A DNA stretch of 64,000 nt from Chlorophyllum brunneum (lineage: Eukaryota; Basidiomycota; Agaricomycetes; Agaricales; Agaricaceae). The position numbers were made by a program, and so were the translations under genes. The notes under the pieces are model-generated. The model searched no databases. It was not told where the DNA came from and saw nothing but the letters and a program-made list of their open reading frames with translations. The first letter of the stretch is position 1. Each line of letters starts with the position of its first letter. The stretch covers positions 2,666,001 through 2,730,000 of the forward strand of contig OY756144.1 in assembly GCA_963576785.1 (NCBI GenBank). Reading direction: 5' to 3'. Below are positions 6,609 through 61,245 of this stretch, piece after piece.

Positions 6609-6764
6609 GGGTGAACGGTCGCGGAAACACGCACGGACGCGCAAATCCTGGACTAGAAAAATGAGCGACCCCCAGCCTCCCCTCCCTAGGGAGAGTATGT
6701 GTCAATTCGCAATTAACTCCTACACACGCCAGAGACGTGGGAAGCTAGCAGGGGTCGCGCTGCG

Positions 6765-18957: not shown

Positions 18958-18964
18958 TGGCAAG

Positions 18965-25440: not shown

Positions 25441-25458
25441 GGCGGCTTTTTTCAGCAC

Positions 25459-28156: not shown

Positions 28157-28174
28157 GTACTGAAAAAAGCTGCC

Positions 28175-28443
28175 AAGATAGGATACCCCTCCCGGTCTGC
28201 TTTGGCATAGTTCTGGTAGTTAGTAGACATAACCCAATCTCCAGATTGAGGATGCTGACTAAGTTGGCTTAAAATAACCTCAGGACCAATCTGGTAGCAG
28301 TGTCTGCAAGGTATAGATCTCAGACAGTTAAGCATGGGGATCCAGGCCATAAGGCATACCAAACCAGCTGCTGAGGAATGGGAAGCAACTCCGGAGGTAG
28401 CACCTGGGTGAAGTTGTGGGCTGTAGCAGGTGATGTACTGGGG
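28175..28443 (+). repeat. Leader module beta (slot 2)
   Basis: Diverged homologue of epsilon: beta ctggtagttagtagacata against epsilon ctggtcgttagtagggata, and beta gcatggggatcc against epsilon gcatgcggatcc, in the same order. It is flanked on both sides by the hinge. It is missing from element Y, where alpha joins gamma directly. Confidence 0.65.
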
Positions 28444-28462
28444 CATGCTGAAAAAAGCTACC

Positions 28463-28618
28463 AGTTATCAGAGAATGCTCACCTGGCTTGAGAGGACTAA
28501 ATCCTACATTGGTTGGCCTAGTACAGGAAAAATAGCCAGGTTCCAGCTCAAGTTGATTCCACATTGCCATTGGCTAAGGCTGGTAGTAAGAGACCCCTCA
28601 AGGGGCTCCATAGATGGG
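28463..28618 (+). repeat. Leader module gamma (slot 3)
   Basis: Nearly identical to 25285-25440 apart from CpG decay. It ends ggggctccatagatggg, then LINE-B continues at tgtacaactctgctgctg. It shows the same 3' terminus as the other slot-3 modules. Confidence 0.7.
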
Positions 28619-29739: not shown

Positions 29740-30541
29740 TTTTTTTTTTTTTTTTTTTTAAAAATCAACATGTTTAAGGTGGTGTGCAATCGCAGTCCAC
29801 CTGTATCTACTGTGACATATAGGCTACATAGGTAGGTAAAAGAAGACGGGCTCTCCCCTGGCCAAACTAGACCACCGACAGGCAGTCTGGGTAAACGGTC
29901 GCAGAAACACGCATGGATGTGTGAATCCTAGACCAGATATACAAGCGACCCCTAGCTTCCCCTCCCTAAGGAGAGTATGCATCAATTTGCAATTAACTTC
30001 TACACACATCAGAGATGTGGGAAGCTAGCAGGGGCTGCATTGCGTTATCCAACTCCTGCAAGTGGTGTGTTGGCCTTAAATGCAAATGCAGAAGAATTGC
30101 ATTTAAGAACCCATGTACAGAGCCCCTTAAGGGAATAAAGCTCCTAAAGGCCCAGAAATGGGGGTCTTGAGACGTCGTGTGCCCATAGAATGCCCAGCAT
30201 GTTCCCAAGCTCCCATATTGGTGTCGCATCCAGCCATGTTGCAAGGACTTTGCCCCTCCCTCCTAAGAGGTAAAGTCTTTAGCTTGGGCGAACACTCTGC
30301 TACTAAGAGAGAGCAGTATCCCTGAGGACCGGCCTGCCATTCGCTTGAGGCACTCTTCCTATATGGTGCATGGATGGAATCTCACCACAAGCTGCGCATG
30401 CCGCTACCCCAAAACTAGACCTCTTATGTGGTAACAACTCAAATGGGTACACCCCAATCTTCACAGGGACCCACTGACAGAGGATTTTGACCTCTCGAGC
30501 CAGGCCACTCCTTCTCGGTAACTGGGCGGCTTTTTCCAGTG
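29740..30541 (-). mobile_element. Short composite: zeta leader plus LINE-A 3' end
   Basis: T tract 29740-29759, LINE-A 3' UTR and last codons (to 30109), then zeta in sense 5' direction (30110-30524) and the hinge cactggaaaaagccgcc (30541-30525), where it stops. Zeta joins LINE-A at cttaaatgcaattc near the ORF2 end. It encodes no enzyme. Its 5' limit coincides with the hinge and is followed at once by the T tract of the next composite. Confidence 0.7.
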
Positions 30542-30883
30542 TTTTTTTTTTTTTTTTTTTAAATCAACATATTTAAGATGGTGTGCGATCACAGTCCACC
30601 TGTATCTACTATGACATGTAGGCTGCATAGGTAGGTAAAAGAAGATGGGCTCTCCCCTGGCCGAACTAGACCGCCAACAGGCAGTCTGGGTGAATGGTCA
30701 TGGAAACATGCATGAACGCATGAACAGTTGTGGAAACATGCACGAACGCATGAATCCTAGACCAGATATGCAAAGCGACCCCTAGCCTCCCTAGCCTCCC
30801 CTCCCTAGGGAGAGTATGCATCAATTCGCAATTAACTCCTACACACATCAGAGACATGGGGAGCTAGCAGGGGTCGTACTGCA

Positions 30884-33800: not shown

Positions 33801-34658
33801 CGGAAGTCTAGCTACTTCACGGAGGTCCCGGATAATATCAGTGAGGAAGAGCGCTACCTCTTCGCCACCATCATGCGGCAGGGTTTTCCTGTGAGTCTCC
33901 ACTATCGTGGGAATGACTGGAAGCGTCAGAACCAGTGGAACGTGGTCTGACGGACCCCTAAGGGAGTAATCCAACCTAGGTCTATGGGAAATAGACAGGT
34001 CTGATGGAACAAATGCAAGATCAATGACCGATGGTCGAAGATCCTCATTGTGTGGAATGTGAGTAGGCCCAGGCTCGACCAGAAGGGCGAGGTCTAGACC
34101 GATGTCTGTCCCGATGGAGATCAGAGACTGCGAGGTACCTGAGTGGGAGCCACAATTAGGGTCCCACAACTCAGAATGGCAATTGAAATCGCCGCCCATA
34201 TAGATATGCTTGGGCAATGTGGCAGCCCAGTCTGCCAGGAACCGAATTGCCGTGTGCTCCGAATCAGAGTAAACGTTCATGAGATTCAGGGTCTCACCCC
34301 CTAAAAAGAGGGAGAGAACCATGATGTCACGGTGATTGATGAGATCCGTCCGATAGGACGGTCTCAGAGAAGACAACCGGTTATGGACAAATGTCATAAC
34401 CCGTGGGTCAGAGCCAGGCTCTGGGGCCCGAACCATGCACAGCCACTCGGGGTGCTTGGGGGCGCCAATAATGTCATCCCCCTTGACAAAGGTCGTGGAG
34501 GGGGCGGATCTGATGAACCGCCAGGGAGGTTCTTGAATAAAGAGAACATCAAAAAGATCTTTGAGGTCCTCAAGTAGCGTGTCCAATAAATCATAATTTT
34601 TATTCAGATTCTGTTGGTACAATCGGATACTTCGTAATTCTAAAGGTCGCCTATTCAT
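30884..34658 (-). pseudogene. LINE-A ORF2 of the delta-epsilon-zeta composite
   Basis: ATG at 34658, EN and RT open for about 770 codons to 32346, nearly identical to copy 4 (FIQEPPW, YMGGDFNCHSELWDPN, VSQGSSLSPVLSS). The active-site motif reads YVNDG, not YVDDG, so the RT is disabled. One extra A in an A run near 32345 shifts frame; the next frame runs 32503-31313. In RNase H about 130 bp are deleted at 31384-31390 (HSGQGHSSGC). The C-terminus (31128-30928) keeps CECG and THILCSC, and a further shift follows. Confidence 0.85.
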
Positions 34659-34860
34659 TGGCAAGCTGTAGAGTACGAGGGTTGATGAGGGGAGATCACC
34701 GCCGAAGATGGTTGTTACTCACCTCGTAATAAAACTTCTTGATTTTCTCGGGTTCAAACTGAGCATCAAAAAATTTACACTTCTTCGAGGTCGTATGGTG
34801 GGGACCCCGGCAGTTGAGACAACATGGCGTATGAGGACAGGGCTCGTCTGCCAGTGTAGG
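34651..34860 (-). pseudogene. LINE-A ORF1 knuckle fragment fused to zeta
   Basis: Encodes ADEPCPHTPCCLNCRGPHHT and KKCKFFDAQFEPEKIKKFYY, the last knuckle and tail. CGA-to-TGA at 34696-34698 ends it early. The zeta reading frame (PARDSVYGPTL) runs into it without a stop. The junction (gtacggg then cctacactgg) is the same as at 44888. Confidence 0.8.
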
Positions 34861-35234
34861 CCCGTACACGGAGTCCCTTGCAGGCAAACTCCTAGCAGCC
34901 CAGAGACGGGGGTCTTGAGACGATATGTGCCCGTAGAACGCCCAGCATGTTCCCAGGCTCCCATATTGGTGTCACATCTGGCCATGTTGCGGGGACTTTG
35001 CCTCTCCCTCCTAAGAGGTAAAACCTTTACCTTGGGCAGACACCCCGCTACTGAGAGAGCACGGTATCCCTGAGGACTGGCCCGCCATTCGCTTGAGGCA
35101 TCCTTCCTATACGGTGCACGGACAGGATCTCACCGCATGACTGCACACATTGCCACCCCAAATCCAGACTACTTACGTGGTATCAACTTAAATGGGTACA
35201 CTCCGTTGTTGGCGGAGACCCATCGATGGAGGAG
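34861..35234 (-). repeat. Leader module zeta, 3' three quarters
   Basis: Matches zeta at 59924-60336. It is interrupted at 35234 by the full-length LINE-A and resumes at 41973. It contains ggatgcgacaccaatatggg-like and aggcatccttcctatacgg segments and ends in the sense strand with gggactccgtgtacggg. Confidence 0.75.
35216..35234 (+). repeat. Target-site duplication of LINE-A copy 6 (partner about 41972-41990)
   Basis: About 17-18 bp around gacccatcg(a/c)..ggagga on each side of 35235-41972; the right copy reads agacccatcgacggagga and the left has tgg for cgg at one CpG. Exact edges are uncertain because of the A tract. Confidence 0.75.
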
Positions 35235-35359
35235 TCGCTTCTTGATTTGGTACTTCCACCAGTAAACAAGCGTAAACAAATCGTCCTCATCATCTTATCC
35301 ATTGTACTCGCTTGTTTCGGTGTCCTAGTCTACTAGGAATACACCCGCGGCCACTCTGC

Positions 35360-37323
35360 ATGTCATCACACCACCCATTCGGCGGGGGGACCGGGCGCCA
35401 AGTCCCTGAGTCCCCCGACACCCTCGACACCATCTGCGGGTCCTCAACAGGGCCCATCCGTCATCAGCGCGAATCTAGCCGTTCTAGAGGACCGCCGGAT
35501 ATTCTCCGAACTCCCACCGGTAGGAGGGGTTCACGCAACCCTTCACGCGCAACCTCGCCATCGCCTGGGCCTGCTGTGGAGGATTTTGGCGAGTTAGGAG
35601 GGTTCGACGAAGATCCCATGACTCCCCCTCGGGGCCCTACCCCCAGCGCACCTAGCCCTGTGCCCTCCTCCTCCAGCTCCTCGTCCCCGTACTCCTGTCA
35701 TCTTCTGAACACTGCCGAAAGTGTTGCAGGGGACCTCGAAGCGGCCTCGGACTCGCTGGACCTCATCTCCACCTTCCTTAACAAGACGGTGGAGAATATC
35801 GACTGGACTACCCTCCCGGGTAAGTCTGTGTACCCCCTTGCGCGGTCGATTATTCGGCTGTGCAAGGCTATCAACGACAGTGGATGGTCCACTGTCGAGC
35901 TTGGCTTTGGGATGCCTACTATTGGTACCGTCCTGAGCACATCTATGGGCCTGGCCCCCGCTGCTCCCGCTCCCCCGCCTCCTGCTCCTCGTACTCCTCC
36001 AGTACCAAGGGCTCGAGTTACTCCCCGGCCTCCCCAGGCTGGACCTCCCCCCCAGGATCCAGACGTTCCGATGCCTGGTCCGGAGGGTGCTCCGAGCGGT
36101 TCTCGCCCTGTTGGGGTCGGACCGTCCCCTCTCGCGGGCAAAGGGACCTACCAGCGCAAGCCGGTGGCTCCCCCTGCTCCCGTTGCTTCAGCTGCCAAAT
36201 CGGGGAACAAGAGAACGTTCTCCGCGGTGGCTAAGGAGCCTGCTCCCCAACCGAAAGGGAAGGGAAAGGCTACTACGGCGTCGGGTACTGTTGTGCAGCT
36301 TGCACAAATGTTCCCTTCGCTTCCTCCGGACAGGATTCTCGCCATGGGCGAGCAAGCCTCTCCCCCTAAGTCCAAGGCTTCTAAGAAGAGGCCCAGGATG
36401 ACCACCGCTGGCCCCTCACGGCGCCAGTTGATCGTTGACTTCGAGGTTACCCCCGATGTCTCCTCTTTCCACCTCGAGACCATGGTTAACCGTGGCTTTG
36501 TGGATTCACGCCTTCATATCCGAGTAGAGTCTACCTCTGCTGAGTATGGGGGTTTGCTCTGCGTACCAACGCTGTCCCCACCCCTGCCGACCTTGAGGTC
36601 GCTAGGACGTGGATCTTGAAGGCCGTCCCTCAGGGAACTGTATTTACAGTTGGCCTCCCTCAGTCGAAGTCCTACCTCAAGGTCATTGACGTCCCCTTCT
36701 TCAGGATCGGCGAGACTCGCTGGTCCTCATTTGAGATCGAACAGATCATGAAACGCACAGTGTTTTCTGATCTCTTCACGTTAACGGGACCTCCCCGTAT
36801 TTCGAGGAACTCTGAGGCGTCTGATACTACCACGGTGTACTTCAACATTCACGACTCTCAGAAGGGTCAACGGGCGAACCTCCTCCTCAGGAAATCGCTC
36901 CATATCGGTGGATACGCCTGTCCTATTAGGCCGTCCGCAGCCTCCCCGGGGGTGTCTCTGTGCAAGCGTTGCTTCCACTGGGGCCACCCCATGCAATTCT
37001 GCAAGGCGCAGGCCTTGAAATGTCCAACCTGTGGTGGTCCTCATCGCGAGGAACATCACCGAACTCTCTGTGGGCGCTGCAAGGGTAATTCCAACGTGCA
37101 GCCCCCCATCCCTCCCACACCGGTGGATGAGCCCTGTCCTCATACGCCACGTTGTCTCAACTGCCGGGGTCCCCACCATACGACCTCAAAGAAGTGCAAA
37201 TTTTTTGACACTCGGTTTGAACCCGAGAAAATCAAGAAGTTCTATTGCGAGGTGAGTAACAACTGTCTTCGGCGGCAATCTCCCCTCATCAACACTCATA
37301 CTCTACAGCTTGCCAATGAATAG
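35360..37323 (+). pseudogene. LINE-A ORF1 copy 6, one frameshift
   Basis: ATG at 35360 (MSSHHPFGGG). Open to about 36555, where one T is missing (gggggtttgctc for gggggttttgctc). The second frame then runs to TAG at 37321-37323. Three knuckles are present: CKRCFHWGHPMQFC, CPTCGGPHREEHHRTLC and CLNCRGPHHTTSKKC. The product ends LQLANE with the ORF2 ATG inside the last codons. The upstream TTG at 35312 would add 16 residues and is less likely. Confidence 0.88.
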
Positions 37324-40085
37324 AACTACGTAGTATTTGTTTGTACCAACAGAATCTTAACAAGAATTATGATTTATTGGACACTCTACTTGAGGACCTC
37401 AAAGATATCTTTGATATTCTCTTTATTCAAGAACCTCCCTGGCGGTTCATCAGATCCGCCCCCTCCACGACTTCTGTTGAGGGGGACGACGTTATTGGCG
37501 CCCCCAAGCACCCCGATTGGCTGTGCATGGTTTGGGCCCCGGAGCCTGGCTCTGACCCATGGGTTATGACATTTGTCCATAACCGGTTGTCTTCTCTGAG
37601 ACCGTCCTATCGGACGGATCTCATCAATCACCGTGACATCATTGTTCTCTCCCTATTTTTAGGGAATGAGACCCTGAATCTCATGAACGTTTACTCTGAT
37701 TCGGAGCACACGGCAATTCGGTTCCTGGCGGACCGGGCTGCTACATTGCCCAGGCACATCTATATGGGCGGCGACTTCAATTGCCATTCTGAGCTGTGGG
37801 ACCCGAATTATGGCTCCCACTCAGGTACCTCGCAGTCTCTGATCTCCATCGGGACAGACATCGGTCTAGACCTTGCCCTTCCAGTCGAGCCTGGGCCTAC
37901 TCACATTCCACACAATGAGGATCTTCGACCATCGGTCATTGATCTGGCATTTGTTCCAGCAGACCTGTCTATTTGTCATAGACCCAGGTTGGATTACTCC
38001 CTTAGGGGTCCGTCAGACCACGTTCCACTGGCTCTGACACTTCCAGTCATTCCCACGATAGTGGAGACTCACAGGAAAACCCTGCCGCATGATGGTGGCG
38101 AAGAGGTAGCGCTCTTCCTCACTGATATTATCCGGGACCTCCGTGAAGTAGCTAGACTTCCGGAACCTACCACTACTGATGAGGTTGAAGCTGTGGTTCT
38201 TGCCGTGGCAGAGGCCTTCTCCACCGCGTGGGAAGCCCACGCAGTAGACATCATGATCACTCGCCGCTCTAAACCCTGGTGGAACCAGGAATGCCGCGAA
38301 ACTTTCGGGAGATATTGTGAGACTTGTTCCCATGATGACTACTCTGACTTTAGACGTGCTAAGAAGTGTGCCAAGCGCAACTTCTTTGATGCTCACATCG
38401 AGGAGATTACTTCTACTAACAAGCGACCGTGGGACCTTATGGAATGGGTCCAAAAGCGGAAGCTTCCACCCTGCGAGGCTATCCAGTACAATGGAGAGCC
38501 ATGTCACGCACTCCCGGATCTCTGGGACGCACTCCACAATACCTACAACTCGGCTTCTGGCCGAGCTGTGGATATTTCTGTTCTTGATCCGCTGCCCAGC
38601 CTCACGGCTTGGGAGTGGGTCCGCTTTTCAGCCTTAGAGCTGATGGACGCCCTTAGCGCATGCTCGGGTGTGTCCGCCCTGGGGCCGGACCATGTAACAT
38701 GGACCCACCTCAAGGAGATCACCGAGGACCCCGATGTCCTTAGGCTATTCATTGGGATAGCCAATGCCTGCATGAGTGTGGGTCATTGGCTGTCCCATTT
38801 CAAGGAAAGCTTGTCGGTTATCATACCAAAGCCGGGCAAGCCATCCTATTCAACGCCCAAGGCGTTCAGGCCCATTGTGCTCCTGAACACCTTTGGTAAA
38901 CTCATCGAGAAAATGATCTCGAATCGCCTCCAGTTTGACTCTGTCAAGCATGGAGTTTTTCATCCAAATCAGCTTGGTGGTATCCGTCAGAGGTCCACTG
39001 ATGATGCTGGGATGCTCCTAACCCACATCGTTCGCGCGGGGTGGGCCAGGGGCCTCAAGACTAGTGTTGTCACTTTCGACATCGCTCAGTTCTTTCCTTC
39101 GCTCAACCACTCTATGTTGTTGGTGATCTTACGGAAGCAAGGATTCGACCCCTGTGTGGGTAGATTCTTTGCCTCTTATTTGGTTGGCCGCTCTACGCAA
39201 TATGCATGGGGGGACCACAAGTCTGATCTCAGGCAGGCGGACGTTGGGGTTGGTCAGGGCTCTTCGCTCTCTCCTGTCCTCTCCAGCCTCTATCTTGCCC
39301 CCTTCATAAAACATTATAATAGGGAGGCAATCGCTCTTGAGAGCACTTTGCTCTCATACGTCGACGATGGCCTTGCCATCACCCAAGCTAAAACTTGGGA
39401 ACCTAATTTGGTGTGTCTCAAGCAGGTGTACCAGATTATTCATTGCCTGACTACTTCGTTTGGGCTTGCCGTTGAGCACGACAAGTCTGAAGTTTTTCAT
39501 TTCTCCTGTAAACGGGGAGATGACAACCCACCGCTGGATTTGGGGTATGCTCCCCATACCGGCGATACCCCGCTTTGCCCTAAGACCCATTGGAGGTACT
39601 TAGGTTTCTTTTTCAATCGCGCTCTTACGTTCAAGGAGCACGTTCGGCATTACACTACTAAGTCCCTGTCCACGGTCAAGGCCATGGGCATGCTTGGTAA
39701 CTCTTCGCGAGGCCTTCTTCCTTCCCAGAAGAGGACTCTGTACCGCTCATGCATAGTGCCCATCGCTACGTATGGGTTTTGACTCTGGTTTTATGAAGGT
39801 GCCCGTAACAAGGCCCTTCTGAAACAACTTAACACTATGCAGCACAAAGCTGCATTGTGGATCACTGGTGCATTTCGCACCAGCCCTACCGGAGGAGCTG
39901 AAGCCTTGGCTGGCCTCATCCCCATCCATCTTCATCTCAGGAAGCTGGCTACCCATGCCATCCACAGGGTTGCCACACTTTCTGAGAACCACCCTGTTTG
40001 CTCCGTTATGGGGCATCAGTATATAGGGGGCTGTGTTCCACACCCCAGATCGATTGCTCTCATGACCCCCACTCAGGCGGGCAGG

Positions 40086-40100
40086 GTCAAGGGGCCAGTC
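40086..40100 (+). repeat. Target-site duplication of the 475-bp LINE-A insert (partner 40576-40590)
   Basis: Perfect 15-bp repeat gtcaaggggccagtc on both sides. Confidence 0.92.
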
Positions 40101-40575
40101 TTTTTTTTTTTTTTTTTTAAATCAACATGTTTAAGGTGGTGCGCGATCGCAGTCCACCTGTATCTACTGTGACATGTAGGCTAATGTAGGGATGTACGAA
40201 GATAGGCTCTCCCCTGGCCGAACTAGACCGCCGACAGGCGGTCTGGGTGAACGGTCGCGGAAACACGCACGGACACGTGAATCCCAGACCAGATATGTAG
40301 AGCGACCCCTTGCCTCCCCTCCCTAAGGAGAGTATGCGTCAATTCACAATTAACTTCTACACACGTCAGAGACGTGGGAAGCTAGCAGGGGCCGCGCCGC
40401 GTTATCCAACTCCTGCAAGCGGTGTGTTGGACTTAAACGCAAACGCAGAAGGATTGCATTTAAGGAAACTAACAAGCTGGTCGATAGAGACCGGCAAGCC
40501 ACGACGTCTCTTGTACAGTGGACAAGAGCACAAGATATGAGTGCGGGTCTCCAGAGGAGCCCCACACTCGCAGCC
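40101..40575 (-). mobile_element. 5'-truncated LINE-A 3' end inside copy 6
   Basis: T tract 40101-40118, 3' UTR with hairpin near 40223, and the last codons of ORF2 up to the CECG/THILCSC motif region, where the sense 5' end lies. No leader is attached. This is an ordinary 5'-truncated LINE insertion with a perfect duplication, and the innermost layer of this nest. Confidence 0.92.
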
Positions 40576-41972
40576 GTCAAGGGGCCAGTCACGGAGGCAA
40601 ACTCTCGCTTGCCAGACCTAACGGAGACGTTTGAGCCGTTTGTGCTCGAGGCATCGCCAGGTTTTCGTCTCATGGACCGCTTTGTGGCCCAGGTGACTTA
40701 TAAAACATATGACGCATCGCTTGGGGGGAACCCTGCAGGGCGTCAAGTGGATTTGCTCAACGATATCCTTCGTGGGTATCATGAGGATAGACAGGTTGTC
40801 TACATGGCGATGGACGCAAGTCTGCCACTGGTTGGGGACTTCCAGGCAGTTTCTGCTGCCCACGTTTATAGGGGGACATGTTTGCTTCGCGCAATGCGTC
40901 ACCCAGCTGGCAAGGTTACAGCCCCAGATGCTGAGCTTTTTGCCATTCGTATGGCTTTGGGAACTGCTGTAGCAGTTTCTGAGGCTGTGCACATTGCGGT
41001 CTTTACGGACTCGATTGGTTCTGCCAAGTGAGCTCTCGACCTGTCCGTACACTCTGGCCAGGGATACTCCCTGGCAGTGTCGTCTCCTGTTGGAGTGGTT
41101 TAGGGATCGTCCCGACCACTCCCTCACTTTCTGGTCTGTTCCATCATTGGCGGAGTGGTCCATTCATAAGGATGTGCATGTATTTGCCACCGATCTACAG
41201 GTTGCCGCTGGACGTCGTCCAGCAACATCTATTGACTCGCTGCGTAAAATCAACGTAGCAACCATTCAGAAGGCCTGGAAAGTCACTTTCCAGGACTCCT
41301 CTTATCGCGGTTCTAACTTCCTTGCTCTCAAGGATAGTAAGAACAAAGTTTTACAGCCAACGTACCTCCATGGGGGTTCTTGGCTTCCTTCTTTTCCCTC
41401 TCAGTCTATTGCGACGAGAGCGAACTGTGCCATCCTCGGGCATGCTCCAACCGGCGAGTATTGCTCCCGGTTCCATCCTCTAGAGCCTATTGGCTGCGAG
41501 TGTGGGGCTCCTCTGGAGACTCGCACTCATATCTTGTGCTCTTGTCCTTTGTACAAGAGACGTCGTGGCCTGCCGGTCTCTATTGACCAGCTGGTAGGTT
41601 TTCTTAAACGCAACCCATCTGCGTTCGCATTTAAGGCCAACATACCGCTTGCAGGAGTTGGATAACGCGGCATGACCCCTGCTAGCTTCCCACGTCCCCG
41701 ACGTGTGTAGAAGTTAATTGCGAATTGACGCATACTCTCCTTAGGGAGGGGAGGCAAGGGGTCGCTCTACATATCTGGTCTAGGATTCACGCATCCATGC
41801 GTGTTTCCACGACCGTTCACCCAGACTGCCTGTCGGCAGTCTAGTTCGGCCAGGGGAGAGCCTATCTTCGTATACCTTTACATTGTAGCCTACATGTCAC
41901 AGTAGATACAGGTGGACTGTGATCGAGCACCACCTTAAACATGACGACTTAAAAAAAAAAAAAAAAAAAAAA

Positions 41973-43027
41973 GACCCATCGACGGAGGATCTAGACCTCT
42001 CGAGCCGGGCCACTCCTTCTCGGTAACCGGGCGGCTTTTTCCAGCGCGCTCCCAGTAAACAGCCCGCTACGGTCCACTAGTTGGGCAGGCAGAGGCCACA
42101 AAGGTGTACCTCCAAGGCATGACCCCTGGACTAGCTTCCCGTTCCCCCGCAGCCACTTTCGCTATGCCCTACCCCCAGAGGAGGCGACTTGTCTTTGGGC
42201 GCGGATCTGTGTGCTAATACTAGCGGGGATCTCTGTCTCGCAAGGGGCACTACCAGGGTGGTGTTCACATTGGATCACATAAGCAACCCACGGAACGGGT
42301 TACTAAGCAATCCGCGGAACGAGCGCCAATCAACCCGAGTTTCCCCGTGTCAATCCGCACCCACCCGGTGTCCTGGAGTTTGGCGTATCCCTACTAATGA
42401 CCAGGCGCTACCCCCAGAGGGGTTCCCGAAGGCATGGCGACACTGGTGGGGGGTGGCCTGTCCTTTTGGTCGGCTTGTTTTCACCTCCATACCCCCTATT
42501 ACCGTCCCTTATTCTTTCGGTCCCTTTCGGGTGCGACGGGGCAGCTTTTTCCAGCACGCTCCCCACCGACGTGCAAGCACGATTAGGGGTAGGCCCGGAC
42601 GTCCGTCGTCAGCCAGGATAACCCAGCCTCGAGATGCTAGCCGGACTTGAGCTGCAGCAGGGGTTAAAACCGCCATGCAAACCCTATATGGGACTGCAAC
42701 TCCATTGGATTAATAGAAGGGCCGCCACCACTGGCAACCCAGCGAGCGCAAGCGAGCAAGGTGGCCAGGATCCCAGCCTTTAAGACCCTTTACCAAGGGG
42801 CCGCCTCGTCGATCTGTGCGTATAGGCATCAGTCAGATGAACAGTGGGGATATACCCACCTTTAATCGCCTTCACCAAGGGCGCGCTGCCCATCGACCAA
42901 GTAACGTTGCCACCCGGACCACCCCCCTACAGCCAGCGAAGGCTCAGAAAAGACACGAGCCCATGAGAGAGAGCCCGAGAAATGAATGGTGCGATGAGGA
43001 AAGGGAAGTAACAAGTGAAGGAGCGAT
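41973..43027 (-). repeat. Leader zeta start, epsilon and delta of the composite at 30542-43027
   Basis: Zeta start 41973-42029 (ctcgagccgggccactcc on the plus strand), hinge 42030-42047 (sense gcgctggaaaaagccgcc), epsilon 42048-42539, hinge 42540-42557 (sense gtgctggaaaaagctgcc), delta 42558-43027. The order and hinge positions are the same as at 58906-60336. Apparent frames here are short and I see no protein. Confidence 0.75.
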
Positions 43028-44365: not shown

Positions 44366-44760
44366 GGCTGACAACCCACCACTGGATTTGGGGTATGCTC
44401 CCCATACTGGCGATACTCCTTTATGCCCTAAGACCTACTGGAGGTACTTGGGTTTCTTCTTCAATCAAGCTCTTACGTTCAAAGAGCACGTTCAACATTA
44501 TGCTACTAAGTCTCTGTCCATGGTTAAGGCCATGGGCATACTTGGTAACTTGTCACAAGGCCTTCTTCCTAATCAGAAGAGGACTCTTTATCGCTCATGT
44601 GTGGTGCCTATTGCCATGTATGGGTTTCGTTTGTGGTTTTACGAGGGTGTCTACAACAAGGCCCTTCTGAAACAACTTAACACTATGCAGTGGAAAGCTG
44701 CATTGTGGATCACTGGTGCATTCCACACCAGCCCCACCGGAGGGGCTGAGGCCTTGGCTG
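44366..44760 (+). pseudogene. LINE-A ORF2 fragment: RT thumb to RNase H linker
   Basis: Encodes DNPPLDLGYAPHTGDTPL, YLGFFFNQALTFKEHVQHYA, MYGFRLWFYEG and KAALWITGAFHTSPTGGAEA. Joined head to tail after another LINE-A C-terminus, without an A tract between them. Recombination between LINE-A copies or a template switch could explain the joint. It ends at ggccttggctgg, where a zeta-bearing composite begins. Confidence 0.72.
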
Positions 44761-45813
44761 GATGCGACACCAATATGGGAGCCTGGGAACATGCTGGGCA
44801 TTCTACGGGCACATATCGTCTCAAGACCCCCATCTCTGGGCTGCTAGGAGTTTGCCTGCAAGGGACTCCGTGTATGGGCCTACACTGGCAGACGAGCCCT
44901 GTCCTCATATGCCGCATTGTCTCAACTGCCAAGGTCTGCACCATGTGACCTTGAAGAAGTGTAAATTTTTTGATGCTTGGTTTGAACCCAAGAAAATCAA
45001 GAAGTTCTATTGCAAGGTAAGTAACAACCATCTTCGACAGCAATCTCCCCTCACCAGCCCTTGTACTCTACAGCTTGCCAATGAATAGGCAGCCCTTAGA
45101 ACTACGAAGTATCCAAATGTACCAACAGAATCTAAATAAAAATTATGATTTATTGGACACACTACTTGAGGATCTCAAAGATCAGTTTGATGTTCTCTTT
45201 ATTCAAGAACCTTCCTGGCAGTTCATCAGATCCACTCCCTCCACAACTTCTGTTGAGGGGGATGACATTATTGGCACCCCCAAGCACCCCGAGTGGCTGT
45301 GCATGGTTTGGGCCCCGAAGCCTGGCTCTGACCCATGGGTTATGACATGTATCCATAACTGGTTGTTTAGGCATGCTAAGAAGCACACTAAATGCAACTT
45401 CTTTGATGCTTGCATTGAGGAGATTGCTTCTTCTAACAAGCAACTGTGGGGCCTTATGGAATGGGTCCAGAAATGGAAGCTTCCACCCTGCAAGACTATC
45501 CAGTACAATGGAGAACCATATCATGCACTCCCAGATCTCTGGAATGCACTCCACAATACCTACAACTCAGCTTCTGGCTGAGCTGTGGATATTTCTGTTC
45601 TTGATCTGCTGCCAAGCCTTCTGGCTAGGGAATGGGTCCATTTCTCAGCCTTAGAGCTGATGGATGCCCTGAGTGCTTGCTTGGATGTGTCCGCCCTGGG
45701 GCTGGACTACATAATATGGACCCACCTCAAAGAGATCACTGAGGACCCTGATGTCCTTTGGCTATTCATCGGGATAGCTAATGCCTACATGTATGTGGGT
45801 TATTGGCCATCCC
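44761..45813 (+). mobile_element. Composite: partial zeta leader plus LINE-A ORF1 end and ORF2 start
   Basis: Zeta 3' part (44761-44888), then LINE-A ORF1 from cctacactggcagacgagcc, the junction also seen at 34860. The frame is open from zeta into the ORF1 knuckle (SVYGPTLADEPCPHMPHCLN to LQLANE, stop 45088). The ORF2 ATG at 45081 is followed by EN to about 45363, then an internal deletion to the EN-RT linker (RHAKKHTKCNFFDACIEEIA) and CGA-to-TGA at 45579-45581. It is cut at 45813 by a T tract. Heavily CpG-depleted, so old. Confidence 0.75.
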
Positions 45814-50117: not shown

Positions 50118-50129
50118 GAACTGAATTGC
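50118..50129 (+). repeat. Target-site duplication of the LINE-B tandem block (partner 61795-61806)
   Basis: ggaactgaattgc-type repeat: 12 bp with one G/A difference (gaaactgaattgc on the right). LINE-A EN sequence continues across it (agtgtgctctgaatcagag). Confidence 0.8.
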
Positions 50130-50131
50130 GA

Positions 50132-50401
50132 TTCCGTCCATGCACCATATAGGAAGGATGCCTCAAGTGAACGGTGGGCTGGTCCTCAGGGATACCACGC
50201 TCTCTTAGTAGCGGGGTGTTTGCCCAAGCTAAAGGCTTTACCTCTTAGGAGGGAGGGGCAAAGTCCCTGCAACATGGCTGGATGCGACACCAATATGGGA
50301 GCCTGGGAACATGCTGGGCATTCTACGGGCACACGACGTCTCAAGACCCCCATTTCTGGGCCTCTAGGAGCTTTATTCTCTCAAGGGGCTCCGTACATGG
50401 G
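50132..50401 (+). repeat. Leader module zeta, 5'-truncated, fused to LINE-B ORF1
   Basis: Begins at tccgtccatgcaccatat and runs to ggggctccgtacatggg, then LINE-B ORF1. It is the same module as 59924-60336 with local differences (tcaaggggctccg for caagggactccg), here attached to LINE-B. An ATG in its last bases (50397) is in frame with ORF1. Confidence 0.75.
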
Positions 50402-51200
50402 TCTGATCGTGGAAGGTGCCATGCTTGCGTACGATGGCTATTCCATGGCCACCAACAAACTCGCCACAATCAAGGATATTGAGATCCTTAGGGCATTGGT
50501 TGAACATCTGTCCCCTTCAGGAGCTCCCTTCTGGATTGGACTCCCATCTTCGGTGTCGTACCTCTGTGTGGTCGACGTCCCGTATCTCAAAAACTCCGCC
50601 GCTGGAGTTCAGTGTACCCCAGCAGACGTTGAGGAGGTCCTTACCTCGTCGGTGCATGCTCCTCTGATCAGTCTTAAGGGCCCCCCCAGACTGGTGCGCA
50701 ACTCTAAGACGTCGGACTCATGTACGGCGTTTTTCAACATATGGGACTCCATGAGGGGCACCCGAGCTCTCGGTCTTCTGAATAAGAAGATCATGTTTGG
50801 GAACAAGCAGTGCGTTATACTCTCTGCTAACCCTCGTCGTAACGAGTTGCTGTGTACCCACTGTTACAAGTGGGGCCACGCCTCCTCCTGGTGCAAGGCC
50901 GATGGCCCTGCATGTCCCGACTGCGGCGGTGCACACTCTCGTGCTAATCACCGTACCTTTGCTCTGTGTTGTAAGGGGCAACCGAAGGCTACGCCTCCGG
51001 TTCCTGCTACCCCTGCTGGTCAACCGTGCCCCCATCCTCCTCATTGTCGTAACTGCAAGAAGGAGCATCCTGCTGATTCCAGGAAGTGCGCTTTCTGGAA
51101 CCACAAACACGACCAGGCCTGGCTGACAGCCCGTTATCGAGAGGTGCGTGACAGACGTCATCGCTCTCCCATCCCCCCTCATAACCCCCCTTATGTCTAG
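50397..51200 (+). CDS. LINE-B ORF1 (gag-like), 5'-truncated, start supplied by the leader
   Basis: 267 codons from ATG at 50397 (MGLIVEGAMLAYDGYSM) to TAG at 51198-51200. It aligns with the LINE-A ORF1 core (APFWIGLPSSVSYLCVVDVP, SLKGPPRLVRNSKTSDSC) and has three knuckles: CTHCYKWGHASSWC (CX2CX4HX4C), CPDCGGAHSRANHRTFALCC and CRNCKKEHPADSRKC. The N-terminal Pro/Ser-rich region of a normal ORF1 is missing. The frame also stays open upstream through zeta (MAGCDTNMGAWEHAG), so a longer chimera is possible. The stop overlaps the ORF2 ATG. Confidence 0.78.
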   Translation: MGLIVEGAMLAYDGYSMATNKLATIKDIEILRALVEHLSPSGAPFWIGLPSSVSYLCVVDVPYLKNSAAGVQCTPADVEEVLTSSVHAPLISLKGPPRLVRNSKTSDSCTAFFNIWDSMRGTRALGLLNKKIMFGNKQCVILSANPRRNELLCTHCYKWGHASSWCKADGPACPDCGGAHSRANHRTFALCCKGQPKATPPVPATPAGQPCPHPPHCRNCKKEHPADSRKCAFWNHKHDQAWLTARYREVRDRRHRSPIPPHNPPYV

Positions 51201-54200
51201 GAACAACCTGGACCGTCTGGAGGGCGTTAGGGTCTTCTCATTTAACGTCACAAAGTCATATATTTACGTTGATGTACTGCTCGAGAAGTTAAAAGATGAT
51301 TTTGACATTCTCTTTTTCCAAGAACCCCCGTGGAGGTTCATCCGCACCGCTCCCTCGACCACTGATGTGGAAGGGGATGACGTTACTGGCGCACCTAAGC
51401 ACCCTGACTGGCTCATGGTGGTGCGTCCCCCTACCCAGGGGTCCCTGCCCCGAGTGATGGCGTATGTACACACTCGGCTGCAATGTCTAAGGCCATCAAT
51501 GAGGAGGGACCTCGTGGATCACCCTGATATCTTGGCGCTGACGCTCTTCACTGATGCGAAGGCCCTTAATTTCCTGAACGTCTATTCAGATGATCAGCAT
51601 ACCGCCATCAACTTCCTTCATGGGAAGGTCGATGTCCTCCCCCCATTTGACTTTATGAGTGGGGACTTTAACTGTCATTCTTCGGTGTGGGACCCTGAGG
51701 TTCTGCATCATCGAACGACAGCTCATAGGCTCATGGAAATGAGCTGTGATCTTGGCCTCGATTTGGTTATGCCGACCAACCCGGGGCCGACATTTGTTTC
51801 CCACAACCCAGATCTCCGCCCATCGGTGATCGATCTGGTGTTTGTCTCATCTCCCGATGCATCAAGGACCTTTCCTTATCGGGACATATCTCTGCAGGGC
51901 ACTTTGGATCATGTTCTACTGACCGTCGCCCTTCCTATCACCCCCATTGACGTCAGGGTTGTCAAATCTGTCCTACCAAGGGGCTCTGATGAAGAGGAGG
52001 CCTTTTTGGAACACGTTATTGGTGAGGTGACTGATCTTTCTGATCATCCCTCTCCAGAATCCCCGGATCAAGTGGATGCCTTGGCTTCGGCCGTGGCTGA
52101 CGCCTTCTCCGACGCATGGACACACCACTCGAAGGAGATCCGGATTACGCGCCGCACTCGTCCCTGGTGGGACAAGGCATGTGCTACCTCCTTCTCCAGG
52201 TACCAGGGCTCTCGTAGTCGGGGTGACTGGGGGGAATTTAGGCGGGCTCGCACAGCTGCCAAGCACCGATTCTTCGACTCTAAGATTGAGGAAATCGCTT
52301 CCACTAACAAGTGGCCATGGGACCTTATGGAATGGGTCAAGGCACGCAAGTTACCTCCCTGCGAGGCTATCCAGTTTAATGGACGGCCTTGTCACACTAT
52401 GGACTCTCTCTGGGATGCCCTCCACTCAACGTACAACTCCGCTGCTGATCGGCGGTGTGATGCGTCCGTCCTCGACCCCCTCCCCGACCTTCCAGTCCGG
52501 GAGTGGGCCCCCTTCTCGGCATTGGAACTTAAGGAGGCTTTGTCCTCTTGTTCTAATACGTCCTCTCCAGGTCCCATCTGAAGTACATCGTCATCGATGA
52601 GGATTGTTTGACGGTGTTCCTGCATTTGGCCAATGCCTGCCTTTTGGTAGGGCATTGGCCACGCAGCTTTAAGGAGTCGCTTTCGGTTATCATCCCGAAG
52701 CCGGGGAAGCCCTCCTACTCTACCCCCAAGGCATTCAGGCCAATTGTCCTCCTGAACATGCTTGGTAAACTGGTTGAGAAAATGATTTCCAACCGCATCC
52801 AGTTTGATGCCATTAAACATGACATCTTTCATCCCCATCAACTTGGAGGCATTCGCCAACGTTCCACTGAGGACGCCGGGTTGTTCCTTACCCACCTTGT
52901 TCACGCTGGGTGGGCTAAAGGTCTCAAGATGAGCATGGTTGCTTTTGACATCGCTCAGTTCTTCCCCTCTCTTAACCATGAGATGCTCATGGTGATTCTT
53001 GCCAAGCAGGGGTTCCCGCTTAACGTGCGAACCTTCTTTGCTTCGTATTTGGTGGGCCGTTCCACTGTTTACACATGGAACGGCTTCTCCTCTGAACCCC
53101 GAGGTGCAGATGTGGGCGTCGGACAGGGCTCTGCCATGTCCCCCGTCCTTTCTGGCCTCTATATCGCGCCTCTTATGAAGGTTCTCGACTTGCGGATTAC
53201 CTCCCCTGGGAGTACTCTGCTGTCGTATGTTGATGACAGTACCGTCGTTGCCCAGGCTAAGACCTGGGACGAGAACCTGGACACCCTCAAGGGGGCGTAC
53301 ACCGTTCTCTTCAATCTCTTTGTAGCGTTCGCGCTTGTCATGGAGCATGACAAGTCCGAGCTCTTCCACTTCTCTAGGAAGCCTGGAGACGTCAATCCCC
53401 CCCTTGACTTGGGCTTTGGTCCATTCACGGGGGACACTCCTCTACGCCCTAAGACCTATTGGAGGTATCTGGGCTTTTACTTCGATCGTGCCCTGAATTT
53501 TCAGGAACATGTTCGATATTATTCTACCAAAGCTCTCTCCACCGTGAAAGCGATGGGGATGCTGGGTAATTCCTCCCGCGGTCTGAACCCCGAGCAGAAG
53601 CGGCTCCTGTACAGGTCATGTGTCGTGCCTATCGCGACATATGGCTTCCGTCTGTGGTATTTTGATAAGGCTCGGTGTAAGGGCCTCGTCAAATCCCTAA
53701 ACACTATGCAATGCAAGGCTGCATTGTGGATCACCGGTGCATTCCGCACCTCCCCATCTGGCGGCACCGAGACCCTCGCTGGCCTCATCCCCATCCACCT
53801 CCATCTGAAGAAGCTGGCCTCAAGAGCGAACTACCGCCTCTCCACTCTCTCCGATACCCATCCTCTTCGATCCCTCCTCGATCGTCTGAACACCAAGGGT
53901 GCCCCCCCGCACCCTCTCTCCATTTCCCTCTTGTCTGACCGCCTTGTCAGTCGGGTCAAGGGTTCCCTTATGGAAGCTGCTTTCGTGCTCCCATCCCTTA
54001 CCGAACAGTTTGACCCCTGCTCTGCAGTGGCTCAGCCTGGTCATCGTCTCCTGGACCGCTTTGCGGCCCAGGTCTCCTTCCACGACTCTCCTTGCTCACG
54101 CGACGAGAGAGCTGTGCATATGAGGCATCTGAATAGCACCCTGGACCATGCCAATGCCAACCCTCGGGTTCTCACTGTGGCCACAGACGCTAGTCTACCG

Positions 54201-55040
54201 CTGCGGGGGGAATTCCAGGCAGTTTCTGCTGCCCATATCTACTGGTCGGGCCGGCGTGTCTTTCAGACGAGACACGCGGCAGGTCGAGTGACGGCTCCTG
54301 ACGCTGAGCTGTACGCTGTCCGGATCGCAATTGGGAAGGCCATCAGCCTCCCTGATTGCGACTCCATTGTTTTGTTCACTGACTCCCTGGGCTTGGCTAG
54401 GAGAGCAGTGGACCCTTCCGTTCACTCAGGTCAAGCTCATTCGCTTGCCGTGTGTAGTGCTCTTATGGAGTGGTTCGAGGGCCACCCTGAACGCTCCATT
54501 CACATCTGGCACACCTTCTCTTCGGAGAAGTGGGCCATTCACGGTACCGTACACCAATACTGCACCGAACTTCAGGTCGCCACGGGTTCCCGTCCGCAGA
54601 CCTCCCTTGACTCTCTTCGTCAGAGGGTTGTCAAATCCTGCCAGGATGCCTGGATCACTCGATTCCAGGATCCTACTTACTCGGGTAGCCAGTTCATGGC
54701 TCTCGAAGGGCGTAACGGTAAGCCCCTCCAGCCCACCTACCTCCATGGAGGTTCGTGGCTGCCCTCCGCTGCAGCAGAGTCCAACTCGCTGTCCGCCCGC
54801 ATGTGTAGGGTTATACTCAACCATGCGCCTATCGGGGCCTATAGGTCTCGATTCTTCCAGGACGAACCATTTTGGTGTCCATGCAGGGCTCCTTTCGAGT
54901 CCCGTGTGCATATTCTTACCAACTGCAGTCGGTTTGATTCCTCTCGGGGGTACCCTGCTACGCCGGGTGCCCTTGTCAAGTTCTTGAAAGCGAACCCTCA
55001 GGCGTTCGCCTTCCCATCCGTTCCCCAGGGAATTGGATAA
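51193..55040 (+). pseudogene. LINE-B1 ORF2 (EN-RT-RNase H), one deletion
   Basis: ATG at 51193 inside ATGTCTAG. EN: FFQEPPW, MSGDFNCHSSVWDPE, SVIDLVFVSSPD, LDHVLLTV. A deletion of about 19 bp at 52572 (ggtcc microhomology) shifts frame at SSPGP. RT and RNase H are then open from 52608 to 55040: SVIIPKPGKPSYSTPKAFRP, FDIAQFFPSLNHE, VGQGSAMSPVLSG, SYVDDSTVVAQ, ATDASLPLRGEFQAVSAAHI, AELYAVRIAIGKA, LFTDSLGLARRAV and CPCR with HILTNC. The intact catalytic motifs and single lesion point to a young copy. It is the best LINE-B reference in the window. Confidence 0.9.
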
Positions 55041-55590
55041 CTGACTCAGGGTAGGTGGGTTATTGTCCGGCACTGGTGACCCCTGGCGAAGACCTGGCAA
55101 CAGTTCCGATGACCGATGAATGGACCTGGGCCCTACAGCAACTAGGTGTGGTGAAGATGCCGATAGCCACACAAATGGTGTGGTCAATTACTCTGGCAAG
55201 GGTGACCGTGGCTGGGGGACTGGGTCTTAGTAAGGGGGGGTTGGGGCTTAGCTGGGCCAGTAACTGGGTGTGTCTCCACCGCTGGGCATTTACAGTGAAT
55301 TAACACCTACTGACCGGGCCTGGTCTTTGGACTGGGTTGCTGGTTGGGGGACCTCCCTGCCCACTCGCCTCCTCTGGCGTCCACTCCCCTCGCCCTCTGG
55401 GCTCGGGAGTAGGATGCAATTCCTCCTACCGTTGGCTTTGGGCAACGGTATTTTTGCTTGGTAGGGCGTAGTTACCACTTTCTCCGTAGATACCCGCTTG
55501 TTTACTTTTTTGTACTCCGGCCGCGGGCTGTGTTCGAGCGCCGCGTAATAAATCGGCCTTAGGCCATGATTCAAAAAAAAAAAAAAAAAA
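55041..55590 (+). other. LINE-B1 3' UTR and A tract
   Basis: G-rich first part, then ggctttgggcaacggta and tgtgttcgagcgccgcgtaa, with the palindrome ggccttaggcc before the A tract (55573-55590). The same UTR is seen at 13505-14064 and 61246-61794. It is unrelated to the LINE-A UTR. Confidence 0.88.
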
Positions 55591-58889: not shown

Positions 58890-58905
58890 GAGGGTTGTCA
58901 AATCC
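58890..58905 (+). repeat. Target-site duplication of the 1.9-kb composite (partner 60828-60843)
   Basis: Perfect 16-bp repeat gagggttgtcaaatcc. It fixes both ends of the composite, including the delta 5' terminus. Confidence 0.93.
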
Positions 58906-60336
58906 ATCACTCCTTGACTTGTTACCACCACCATCACTTTTTCCACTTCCTTTCCCCATCGCACCTTTCATCTCCTGGGCTCTCTCTCATGGGCCTGGGT
59001 CTTTTCTGAGCCTTCGCTGGCTGTAGGGGGGCGGTCCGTGTGTCAACGTTACTTGGTCGATGGGCGGCACGCCCTTGGTAAAGGCAATTAAAGGTGGGTA
59101 TATCCCCACTGTTCATCTGACTGATGCCTATACGCACAGATCGATGAGGCGGCCCCTTGGTAAAGGGTCTTAAAGGCTGGGATACTGGCCACCTCGCTCG
59201 CTTGCGCTCGCTGGGTCGCCAGTGGTGGCGGCCCTTCTATTAATCCAATGGAGTTGCAGTCCTGTATAGGGTTTGCATGGCGGTTTTAACCCCTGCTGCA
59301 GCTCAAGTCCGGCTAGCATCTTGAGGCTGGGTTATCCTGGCTGACGACGGACGTCCGGGCCTACCCCTAATCATGCTTGCACGTCGGTGGGGAGCGTGCT
59401 GAAAAAAGCCGCCCTGTCGCACCCGAAAGGGACCGAAAGGATAAGGGATGGTAATAGGGGGTATGGAGGTGAAAACAAGCCGACCGAAAGGACAGGCCAC
59501 CCCCCACCAGTGTTGCCATGCCTTCGGGAACCCCTCTGGGGGTAGCGCCTGGTCGTTAGTAGGGATACACCAAACTCCAGGACACTGGGCAGGTGTGGAT
59601 TGACACAGGGAAACTCGGGTTGATTGGCGCTCGTTCCGCGGATTGCTTAGTAACCCGTTCCGCGGGTTGCTTATGTGATCCAATGTGAACACCACCCTGG
59701 TAGCGCCCCCTGCAAGACGGAGATCCCCGCCAGTATTAGCATGCGGATCCGCACCCAAAGACAAGTCGCCTCCTCTGGGGATAGGGCATAGCGAAAGCGG
59801 CTGCGGGGGAACGGGAAGCTAGTCCAGGGGTCGCGCCTTGGAGGTATGCCTTCGTGGCCTCTGCCTGCCCAACTAGTGGACCGTAGCGGGCTGTTTACTG
59901 GGAGCGCGCTGGAAAAAGCCGCCCAGTTACTGAGAAGGAGCAGCCCGGCTCGAGAGGTCTAGATCCTCCGTCGATGGGTCTCCGCCAACAACAGAGTGTA
60001 CCCGTTTAAGTTGATACCACGTAAGTAGTCTGGATTTGGGGTGGCGATGTGCACAGTCATGCGGTGAGATCCTGTCCGTACACCGTATAGGAAGGATGCC
60101 TCAAGCGAACGGCGGGCCGGTCCTCAGGGATACCGTGCTCTCTCAGTAGCGGGGTGTCTGCCCAAGCTAAAGGCTTTACCTCTTAGGAGGGAGGGGCAAA
60201 GTCCCTGCAACATGGCCGGATGCGACACCAATATGGGAGCCTGGGAACATGCTGGGCATTCTATGGGCACATATCGTCTCAAGACCCCCGTCTCTGGGCT
60301 GCTAGGAGTTTGCCTGCAAGGGACTCCGTGTACGGG
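58906..60336 (+). repeat. Reference leader: delta, epsilon and zeta with two hinges
   Basis: Delta 58906-59395; hinge gtgctgaaaaaagccgcc 59396-59413; epsilon 59414-59905; hinge gcgctggaaaaagccgcc 59906-59923; zeta 59924-60336. Delta starts atcactccttgacttg. Zeta ends gggactccgtgtacggg. Epsilon has several ccgaaagg motifs (cacccgaaagggaccgaaagg-like) that could fold. I recognise no protein or known RNA family. No tRNA-type A/B box pair is evident in delta, unlike alpha. Confidence 0.8.
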
Positions 60337-60827
60337 CTAGAGCCTATTGGCTGCGAGTGTGGGGCTCCTCTGGAGACTCGCACTCATATCTTGTGCTCTT
60401 GTCCTTTGTACAAGAGACGTCGTGGCCTGCTGGTCTCTATTGACCAGCTGGTAGGTTTTCTTAAACGCAACCCATCTGCATTCGCATTTAAGGCCAACAT
60501 ACCGCTTGCGGGAGTTGGATAATGCGGCGTGACCCCTGCTAGCTTTCCACGTCCCCGACATGTGTAGAAGTTAATTGCAAATTGACACATACTCTCCTTA
60601 GGGAGGGGAGGCAAGGGGTCGCTCTACATATCTGGTCTAGGATTCACGCATCCATGCGTGTTTCCACGACCGTTCACCCAGACCGCCTGTCGGCAGTCTA
60701 GTTCGGCCAGGGGAGAGCCTATCTTCGTATACCTTTACATTGTAGCCTACATGTCACAGTAGATACAGGTGGACTGCGATCAAGCACCACCTTAAACATG
60801 ACGACTTAAAAAAAAAAAAAAAAAAAA
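58906..60827 (+). mobile_element. Complete composite: delta-epsilon-zeta leader plus LINE-A 3' end, non-autonomous
   Basis: 1.92 kb between perfect 16-bp duplications. Delta, hinge, epsilon, hinge, zeta, then LINE-A from ctagagcctattggctgcg (60337): the ORF2 Cys/His end (CECG, THILCSC, stop at 60522), 3' UTR and A tract (60807-60827). It encodes no EN or RT. It must have been mobilised in trans, most simply by LINE-A proteins recognising the LINE-A 3' end. CpGs are well kept, so the event is recent. It is the cleanest member of the composite family. Confidence 0.88.
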
Positions 60828-61245
60828 GAGGGTTGTCAAATCCTGCCAGGATGCCTGGATCACTCGATTCCAGGATCCTACTTACTCGGGTAGCCAGTTC
60901 ATGGCTCTCGAAGGGCATAACGGTAAGCCCCTCCAGCCCACTTACCTCCATGGAGGTTTGTGGCTGCCCTCTGCCACAGCAGAGTCCAACTCGCTGTCCG
61001 CCTGCATGTGTAGGGTTATACTCAACCATGCGCCTATTGGGGCCTATAGGTCTCGGTTCTTCCAAGATAAACCATTCTGGTGTCCATGCGGGGCTCCTTT
61101 CAAGTCTCGTATGCATATTCTTACCAACTGCGGTCAGTTTGACACCTCTCGGGAGTACCCTGCTACGCTGGGTGCCCTTGTCAAGTTCTTGAAAGCGAAC
61201 CCCCAGGCATTCGCTTTCCCATCCGTTCCCCAGGGAATTGGATAA

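Follow-up and report, generated by a model that had tools for sequence, protein, structure and literature searches.

It is an open question, from fungi to human, whether LINE enzymes acquire other RNAs by jumping between templates or because the RNAs were ligated beforehand. A sequence-only reading of the locus studied here had pointed to MINE (WEIRD-MGL) of Magnaporthe, and MINE is indeed the closest described kind, with the same architecture. As far as its published description goes, MINE begins with a non-coding RNA copied in full length (about 1 kb) and continues as a 5'-truncated LINE with many truncation points (PMC2104539). According to the same description, both parts have the same orientation, target-site duplications are present, solo leaders are missing, one element is tripartite, and a short motif marks the LINE where it meets the leader (PMC2104539). 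This motif was taken there for a place that the enzyme finds difficult (PMC2104539). For U6/LINE-1 and related mammalian chimeras, the published account names RNA ligation and template switching as two possible mechanisms (PMC13174262).

Here we analysed a stretch of 64,000 nucleotides of Chlorophyllum brunneum (G000:C6:2666001-2730000, called the window below) and related places in the same genome (38.9 Mb, 14 contigs). The chimeras found there appear to be of the MINE type in architecture, and the likeness to Magnaporthe rests on architecture as described. We propose, with a probability of about 85%, that Ld1 and Ld2, two related families of non-coding RNA, spread through attachment of the complete RNA to the 5' side of a LINE RNA in the course of LINE retrotransposition. 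What is new here is a leader-specific junction code, by which different leaders enter the same LINE at different short motifs.

Results

Leader-LINE chimeras in the window

Self-comparison of the window and mapping to natural reference copies revealed ten leader pieces, and eight of them run into a LINE in the same orientation (Table 1). The two remaining pieces, 21383-22323 and 27274-26886, are cut short. The element at 58906-60827 is a complete insertion as had been claimed from the letters, with an Ld1 leader, the end of LINE LA, a poly(A) tail and a perfect 16-bp duplication. The long copy that had been proposed at 43027-30542 also proved to be real: 43021-41972 and 35233-34861 form one leader, split by the full-length LINE at 35234-41971 and followed by LINE sequence to 30542. 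No target-site duplication was found around the whole 43021-30542 element. At the Ld2-LB junction after 28618, the script left 25 bases unaligned, and this junction was placed by eye beside that of locus L033. Two LB copies were seen head to tail, at 51350-55590 and, directly behind, at 55591-61794.

Table 1. Leader and LINE features of the window, with positions counted from its first base.
Feature	Position	Strand	Remark
Ld2 3' end, joined to LINE LA at 1886 from 54	1..53	+	cut by window border
Full-length LINE LA, reference copy	6459..12720	-	16-bp duplication, no leader
1310-aa ORF in LINE LA copy	15085..19017	-	endonuclease and reverse transcriptase domains
Ld1 positions 1-941	21383..22323	+	3' part lost
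Ld2 without middle slot (1-441 joined to 707 onward)	25289..25883	-	enters LINE LA near 3205
Ld1 positions 1-389	26886..27274	-	cut by LINE insertion
Ld2, full length, end ..GATGGG	27731..28618	+	joined to LINE LB near 3330
tRNA-Leu-like head of Ld2, A-/B-box-like	27731..27821	+	from the element's first base; ARAGORN
LINE LB part of the Ld2 chimera	28619..29739	+	later insertion cuts at 29740
LINE LA from about 5893	29740..30109	-	joined to leader at 30110
Ld1 type ii, position 1004 to 3' end	30110..30539	-	
LINE LA of the split-leader chimera, position 1882 to 3' end	30542..34860	-	
Remainder of the split Ld1 (1059-1431)	34861..35233	-	same leader as 41972..43021
Full-length LINE LA inside Ld1	35234..41971	+	18-bp duplication with one mismatch, no own leader
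Ld1 first part (26-1076)	41972..43021	-	LINE-interrupted
Ld1 type i 3' end (1308-1431)	44755..44878	+	
LINE LA from 1882	44879..45366	+	entry point equals that at 34860
Ld1 type ii 3' end	50127..50401	+	
LINE LB, position 1312 to 3' end	50402..55590	+	
Left target-site duplication GAGGGTTGTCAAATCC	58890..58905	+	16 bp, perfect
Leader Ld1 type i, full length, end ..TACGGG	58906..60336	+	1431 bp, non-coding
First GCTGAAAAAAGC motif, head/middle slot border	59398..59409	+	leader position 493
Second motif copy GCTGGAAAAAGC, middle/tail slot border	59908..59919	+	leader position 1003
LINE LA, position 5771 to poly(A) tail	60337..60827	+	last ~490 bp
Right target-site duplication	60828..60843	+	

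The chimeras move as a unit

In the window and 24 loci, 24 insertions had duplications that were recognised by script. Fourteen of these were leader-headed, eight were truncated LINEs and two were full-length LINEs, proportions that are biased because most of the loci had been picked for leaders. Among the 14 leader-headed cases, 11 carry Ld1 and three carry Ld2; the duplication was perfect in six and had one mismatch in eight. When the flanks of different loci were compared as a control, a match of at least 13 bp with at most one mismatch occurred in 4 of 415 comparisons. The leader and its LINE tail move as one unit, and the proposal of a composite leader-LINE family is borne out by these 14 cases. 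The sequence-only reading had also considered that the parts of the leader might be separately inserted SINEs; the duplications bracket leader plus LINE and not single slots. One further locus, L059, reads as a tripartite Ld2-Ld1-LA element in one orientation throughout.

Ld1 and Ld2 are related non-coding leaders

The leader had been described as an assembly of three slots filled with interchangeable modules. The three slots correspond to head, middle and tail, and their borders in Ld1 are marked by a GCTGAAAAAAGC-like motif; the Ld2 copy of the window contains the exact border motif once, at the second border. It is more apt to regard the slots as parts of two fixed, related non-coding RNAs, Ld1 of 1431 bp and Ld2 of 885 bp, and the idea of modular assembly was given up, since two fixed leaders were seen and it is the LINE entry point that varies between copies, not the slots. 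The sole slot rearrangement seen concerned two copies, one per leader, from which the middle slot is missing, with the break at a GCTGAAAAAAGC-like motif (window 25883-25289 and L010 3600-4267). No copy mixing Ld1 and Ld2 slots was found in the long loci that were mapped. The suggestion of two diverged lineages with a common plan was correct: similarity between Ld1 and Ld2 gave z scores of 12.0 for the middle, 8.6 for the tail and -0.8 for the head (100 shuffles each), which means that middle and tail are related and the heads are not.

Neither leader contains a long reading frame. The longest ATG ORF has 33-77 codons in 14 Ld2 copies and 39-102 codons in 28 Ld1 copies. Searching Rfam gave nothing at gathering level in the window, and weak, chance-level matches in the two leaders. 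Compensatory pairing in the 3' terminal hairpin was considered and rejected, because the variation looks like CpG decay and the single-sequence folds differ between types.

The 5' ends of the two leaders differ. That of Ld2 is defined by the duplications in L010, L064 and L065, which end at its first base or one before. The B-box-like motif of the tRNA-like head is present in 11 of 14 full Ld2 copies and absent in three. A run of four T is lacking in all 14 full Ld2 copies; single-sequence shuffles also had none in 229 of 1000 cases, so this absence fits Pol III without being significant for one sequence, and it is a weak sign of terminator avoidance. Judged by these sequence features, the Ld2 head would be a Pol III-type promoter. 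Ld1 has no tRNA-like head and contains an early T run, and its first 28 bases match the 5' end of LINE LA at 21 of 28 positions in the alignment. Because Ld1 starts like the LINEs, it would probably be transcribed by Pol II.

Leader 3' ends adjoin LINEs at many positions

Leader 3' ends were collected from the window, twenty 10-kb loci, twelve shorter loci, four loci outside the main clusters and 73 short junction stretches, four of which were already covered by the four outlying loci. The loci were picked by leader similarity, and the best 40 of 78 to 327 candidates were scored per query; the shares are therefore biased, and the search may have passed over a solo source gene. A scan for three tail forms yielded 127 unique leader 3' ends, all with GGG or decayed GGG, a feature met by construction because the scan pattern demands a GGG-like end and misses over-decayed tails such as that of L105. 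The GGG end was also read in BLAST-mapped ends and in further junction stretches. By type, there were 37 Ld1-i, 38 Ld1-ii and 52 Ld2 ends, with a few Ld2 tails typed as ii by the pattern, an effect that works against the code result given below. Three further Ld1 tails are cut by insertions near position 1410 and have no 3' end. No solo leader and no copy with its own 3' tail was found among the 127 parsed 3' ends.

A LINE of family LA, LB or LC adjoins 125 of the 127 ends. One of the other two adjoins the other leader (L059), and the last adjoins unplaced sequence (L063). With at most three unaligned bases, 106 ends could be placed on 82 distinct LINE positions (84 when counted per leader type), and 72 junctions had no unaligned base at all. 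Left out of the code set were 18 ends with more unaligned bases, the two that are not on LA, LB or LC, and L064, which served as the LC reference.

Entry into the LINEs was not uniform: 63 junctions form 43 clusters, versus 60.5 expected on average under uniform placement, and LA 5967 and LA 5591 were each entered four times. More than one leader copy each was seen at LA 1882-1886, 5589-5591, 5767-5771, 5892-5893 and 5967 and at LB 4805-4810. Repeated LINE or leader-LINE insertions were also observed within the leader, at Ld1 positions of about 1398-1412 (L020, L056, L057, L111 and L112), an apparent hot spot, where a single insertion may be seen from either side in L057 and L112.

Concerning the LINE partners, Ld1 heads LA and LB, and Ld2 heads LA, LB and a third LINE, LC, to which it is joined outside the main clusters (L064-L066). 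The relatives of the 1310-aa LINE ORF that carry a name are mostly from Agaricales (Cyclocybe, Psilocybe and others), and the top protein relative, from Cyclocybe aegerita, is 56% identical across 74% of the query. LB measures about 6.5 kb and extends about 2.25 kb further upstream than the first reference stretch, to its 5' end. At the DNA level, LC (window 242-1200; L064-L066) shares little with LA beyond the last ~65 bases of the 3' end, and similar 3'-end bases are also present in LB. This common 3' end is possibly a shared recognition site for the enzymes.

The junction code depends on the leader

The last LINE bases that the chimera lacks, just ahead of the junction, form a code that reads CCY for Ld1-i, CTY for Ld1-ii and CGA/CRA for Ld2. 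It was counted over distinct LINE positions per type, with four junctions added by hand, and the LINE bases were read from single, decayed reference copies. The 22 positions of Ld1-i gave CCT 7, CCC 4, CTT 4 and others 7; the 22 positions of Ld1-ii gave CTC 11, CTT 8 and others 3; and the 33 positions of Ld2 gave CGA 13, CAA 5, CGT 3 and others 12. Base -2 was a pyrimidine at 22/22 positions for Ld1-i and 22/22 for Ld1-ii, versus 2/33 for Ld2, where 31/33 had a purine (Fisher p 2e-13, i versus Ld2). The two Ld1 types were also separated by this base, which was C at 14/22 and T at 8/22 positions in type i, and C at 0/22 and T at 22/22 in type ii (Fisher p 6e-6 for C, i versus ii).

When only exact junctions were used (17, 19 and 23 positions), the picture was unchanged apart from two ii positions. 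In a looser set, 2 of 27 ii positions had no T at -2, and the two ii positions without this T are probably mistyped Ld2 tails. The split holds within LA and within LB, where Ld1 junctions are few; within LA, Ld1-ii goes mostly with CTC/CTT and Ld2 mostly with CG-type triplets. Leave-one-out prediction of the leader type from LINE bases -4..0 was right in 64 of 84 cases, versus a mean of 27.7 and a maximum of 46 in 200 label shuffles. The signal is confined to about four bases. At the Ld2-Ld1 junction of L059, CGA was read by eye just before the joint, and the first three bases mismatch the reference. In a small control of plain 5'-truncated LINE ends, 2 of 7 fit a code (CTT^C in LB and CCC^G in LA; ^ marks the joint).

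Several origins of the code were tried and rejected. A guide triplet or longer guide complementary or identical to the code gave three near-homologous leader places each, none of them convincing, and a matrix scan found no consistent guide place in the leaders. A master copy, in which the leader would be followed by the complement of the code, was sought for Ld2 only and gave 90+94 hits versus 160+143 in the reversed control; no clear master copy was seen among the first Ld2 places listed. An endonuclease target site was rejected since the duplication border differs, being Y^R-like by eye, and trans-splicing with a normal acceptor was rejected since AG does not usually precede the junction on the LINE.

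Since different leaders use different motifs to enter one and the same LINE, some property of the leader should play a part. Going by the junction bases, the passenger RNA seems to affect where the joint is made. This code, like the tRNA-like head of Ld2 and the common GGG 3' end, had been overlooked in the sequence-only reading.

Leader lineages and genomic distribution

In a tree of 28 full-length Ld1 copies, types i and ii separate with weak support (67/48), and both long and short branches occur. These 28 copies have 26 distinct LINE junctions; the window copy, for instance, is 98% identical to that of L012, whose LA entry is elsewhere. This number of junctions on the subfamily tree suggested that leaders propagate largely apart from their LINE partner and that junctions are, in almost every case, made anew. 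No solo source gene was found among the best 40 of 78, 85 and 79 places in three tail searches, all of which lay within the collected stretches. The source should therefore be elsewhere, or chimeras serve as the source, with the GGG end re-made.

The genome search gave dozens more leader copies outside the window among the matches listed. The leaders lie on contigs C1 to C13 among these matches, mainly in one cluster per contig of ~0.02-0.3 Mb, and we infer that these clusters are what look like the centromeres of this fungus. Chimeras were also noticed outside the main clusters, at C1:4.58 Mb, C6:0.04 Mb, C9:1.95 Mb, C12:1.61 Mb and C8:0.13-0.14 Mb; four outlying chimeras carrying Ld2 (L063-L066) were read at length. 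In leaders and LINEs, the differences between copies seem to be mostly CG to TG or CA, an uncounted impression that would suggest cytosine methylation of these regions. Two same-contig pairs of leaders have an identical flank or junction (window 21382 with L017 1565, and L060 with L073) and are probably local duplications.

Discussion

How the leader could be joined to the LINE

Our preferred reading can be put as a series of steps. The leader RNA would have a fixed 3' end in GGG, and the LINE would be reverse transcribed from its poly(A) end. Synthesis, having reached a position inside the LINE, would then switch to the GGG end of the leader and run to the leader 5' end; alternatively, the leader RNA and the LINE RNA would be ligated first. 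The resulting chimera would be inserted with a target-site duplication. We infer the template jump or RNA ligation, the promoters and the leader's own choice of LINE site from the products. Template jumping and prior ligation would both fit the ends, and neither alone seems to explain a code that is specific to the leader.

A course that we take as a genuine possibility, though not the probable one, is that an RNA ligase joins the leader 3' end to the 5' ends of LINE RNA fragments before reverse transcription, as has been proposed for U6/LINE-1. The absence of any unaligned base at 72 of the 106 usable junctions agrees with ligation, and the motif at the LINE break resembles a cleavage site. 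However, a nuclease acting on LINE RNA should not know which leader is coming, yet the motif differs by leader type within one LINE family.

A tentative and rather doubtful extension of the joining model gives the leader the active part. The leaders would be retro-parasites that never carry their own 3' tail; they would be transcribed from the chimera, the GGG end would be re-made, and the LINE site would be selected by the leader through a C-N-N^Y code. Recombination would then be steered by the passenger RNA instead of the reverse transcriptase, with the RNA perhaps serving as a guide or acting by itself.

It is unlikely that the code is a pause or jump site of the reverse transcriptase, as proposed for MGL, with the leader difference being due to different enzymes or times. 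Chimerization sites of MGL are described as sharing GCC^A/U (PMC2104539), and entry hot spots exist here too, at the two LA positions entered four times each. A pause site of the enzyme alone is insufficient, because one LINE family shows different codes with different leader types: LA alone shows the split between Ld1-ii (mostly CTC/CTT) and Ld2 (mostly CG-type), and so does LB. The C-rich code of Ld1-i was moreover found by eye on long and short branches alike.

The alternative that the leader, as DNA, inserts at a target motif within LINE copies, with its own promoter then making retrotransposing leader-LINE transcripts, could account for the three-base target-like motif and for the 6 of 45 leader copies (both ends in view) that are flanked by the same LINE family in the same orientation. 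It is nevertheless very improbable: the LINE is continuous across the leader in 0 of 45 cases (the closest, L018, lacks 146 bases, and the other five are offset by at least 477), a founder would be needed for each of the 82 junction positions, and the border of the target-site duplication shows a different, Y^R-like pattern by eye.

Equally hard to believe is that an intact LINE has the leader as its normal 5' UTR, a possibility that the sequence-only reading had itself raised, and that the composites arose from it by internal deletion. The LA-like start of Ld1 suggests that promoter types may be shared. Yet none of the nine 5' ends that belong to full-length LINEs, four of LA and five of LB (two of the LA copies having recognised duplications), has a same-orientation leader in front, which argues that the leader is not a LINE 5' UTR. 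Moreover, the leaders head two or three LINE families, and the code follows the leader and not the LINE, contrary to what deletion in a single parent would produce.

Comparison with known systems

No description of these leaders came up in searches of the literature on MINE, mushroom centromeres, SINEs and LINEs, and centromeric LINEs. Three leader types and three LINE families occur in many combinations in one genome, so the contributions of the passenger and the enzyme can be separated. The joining site varies with the type of passenger. This speaks against enzyme pausing as the whole explanation, and the question can be tested with natural junctions and in vitro.

The chimeras resemble MINE in having a full-length non-coding 5' RNA with fixed ends, followed by a LINE in the same orientation that is truncated at 82 positions. 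The duplications of the whole chimera (14 cases), the lack of a solo leader among 127 ends and the tripartite L059 are further points of likeness. Unlike MINE, there are here three leader types in one genome, three LINE partners and a tRNA-like head on one leader. The motif GCC^A/T described for MGL is not what marks the junctions here, and its place is taken by CCY, CTY and CGA/CRA according to leader type.

Ld2 recalls tRNA-derived SINEs in its tRNA-Leu-like promoter start and in a middle and tail common to families with different heads. Unlike such SINEs, the leaders are 885 or 1431 bp long, have no A-tail or LINE-like 3' end of their own and were never seen solo, and their LINE tail is acquired anew with varying length. 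They show how a tRNA-headed RNA can multiply without its own 3' tail.

The RNA in U6/LINE-1 has independent cellular genes, whereas no solo gene was seen for the leaders here, which form a large family with its own subfamilies. As described, U6/LINE-1 and related mammalian chimeras are alike in placing a small RNA on a 5'-truncated LINE, mostly in sense orientation (PMC13174262). In conclusion, by comparison with these systems, the elements of this fungus are most likely RNA-LINE chimeras like those of MINE and U6/LINE-1, produced while a LINE retrotransposes.
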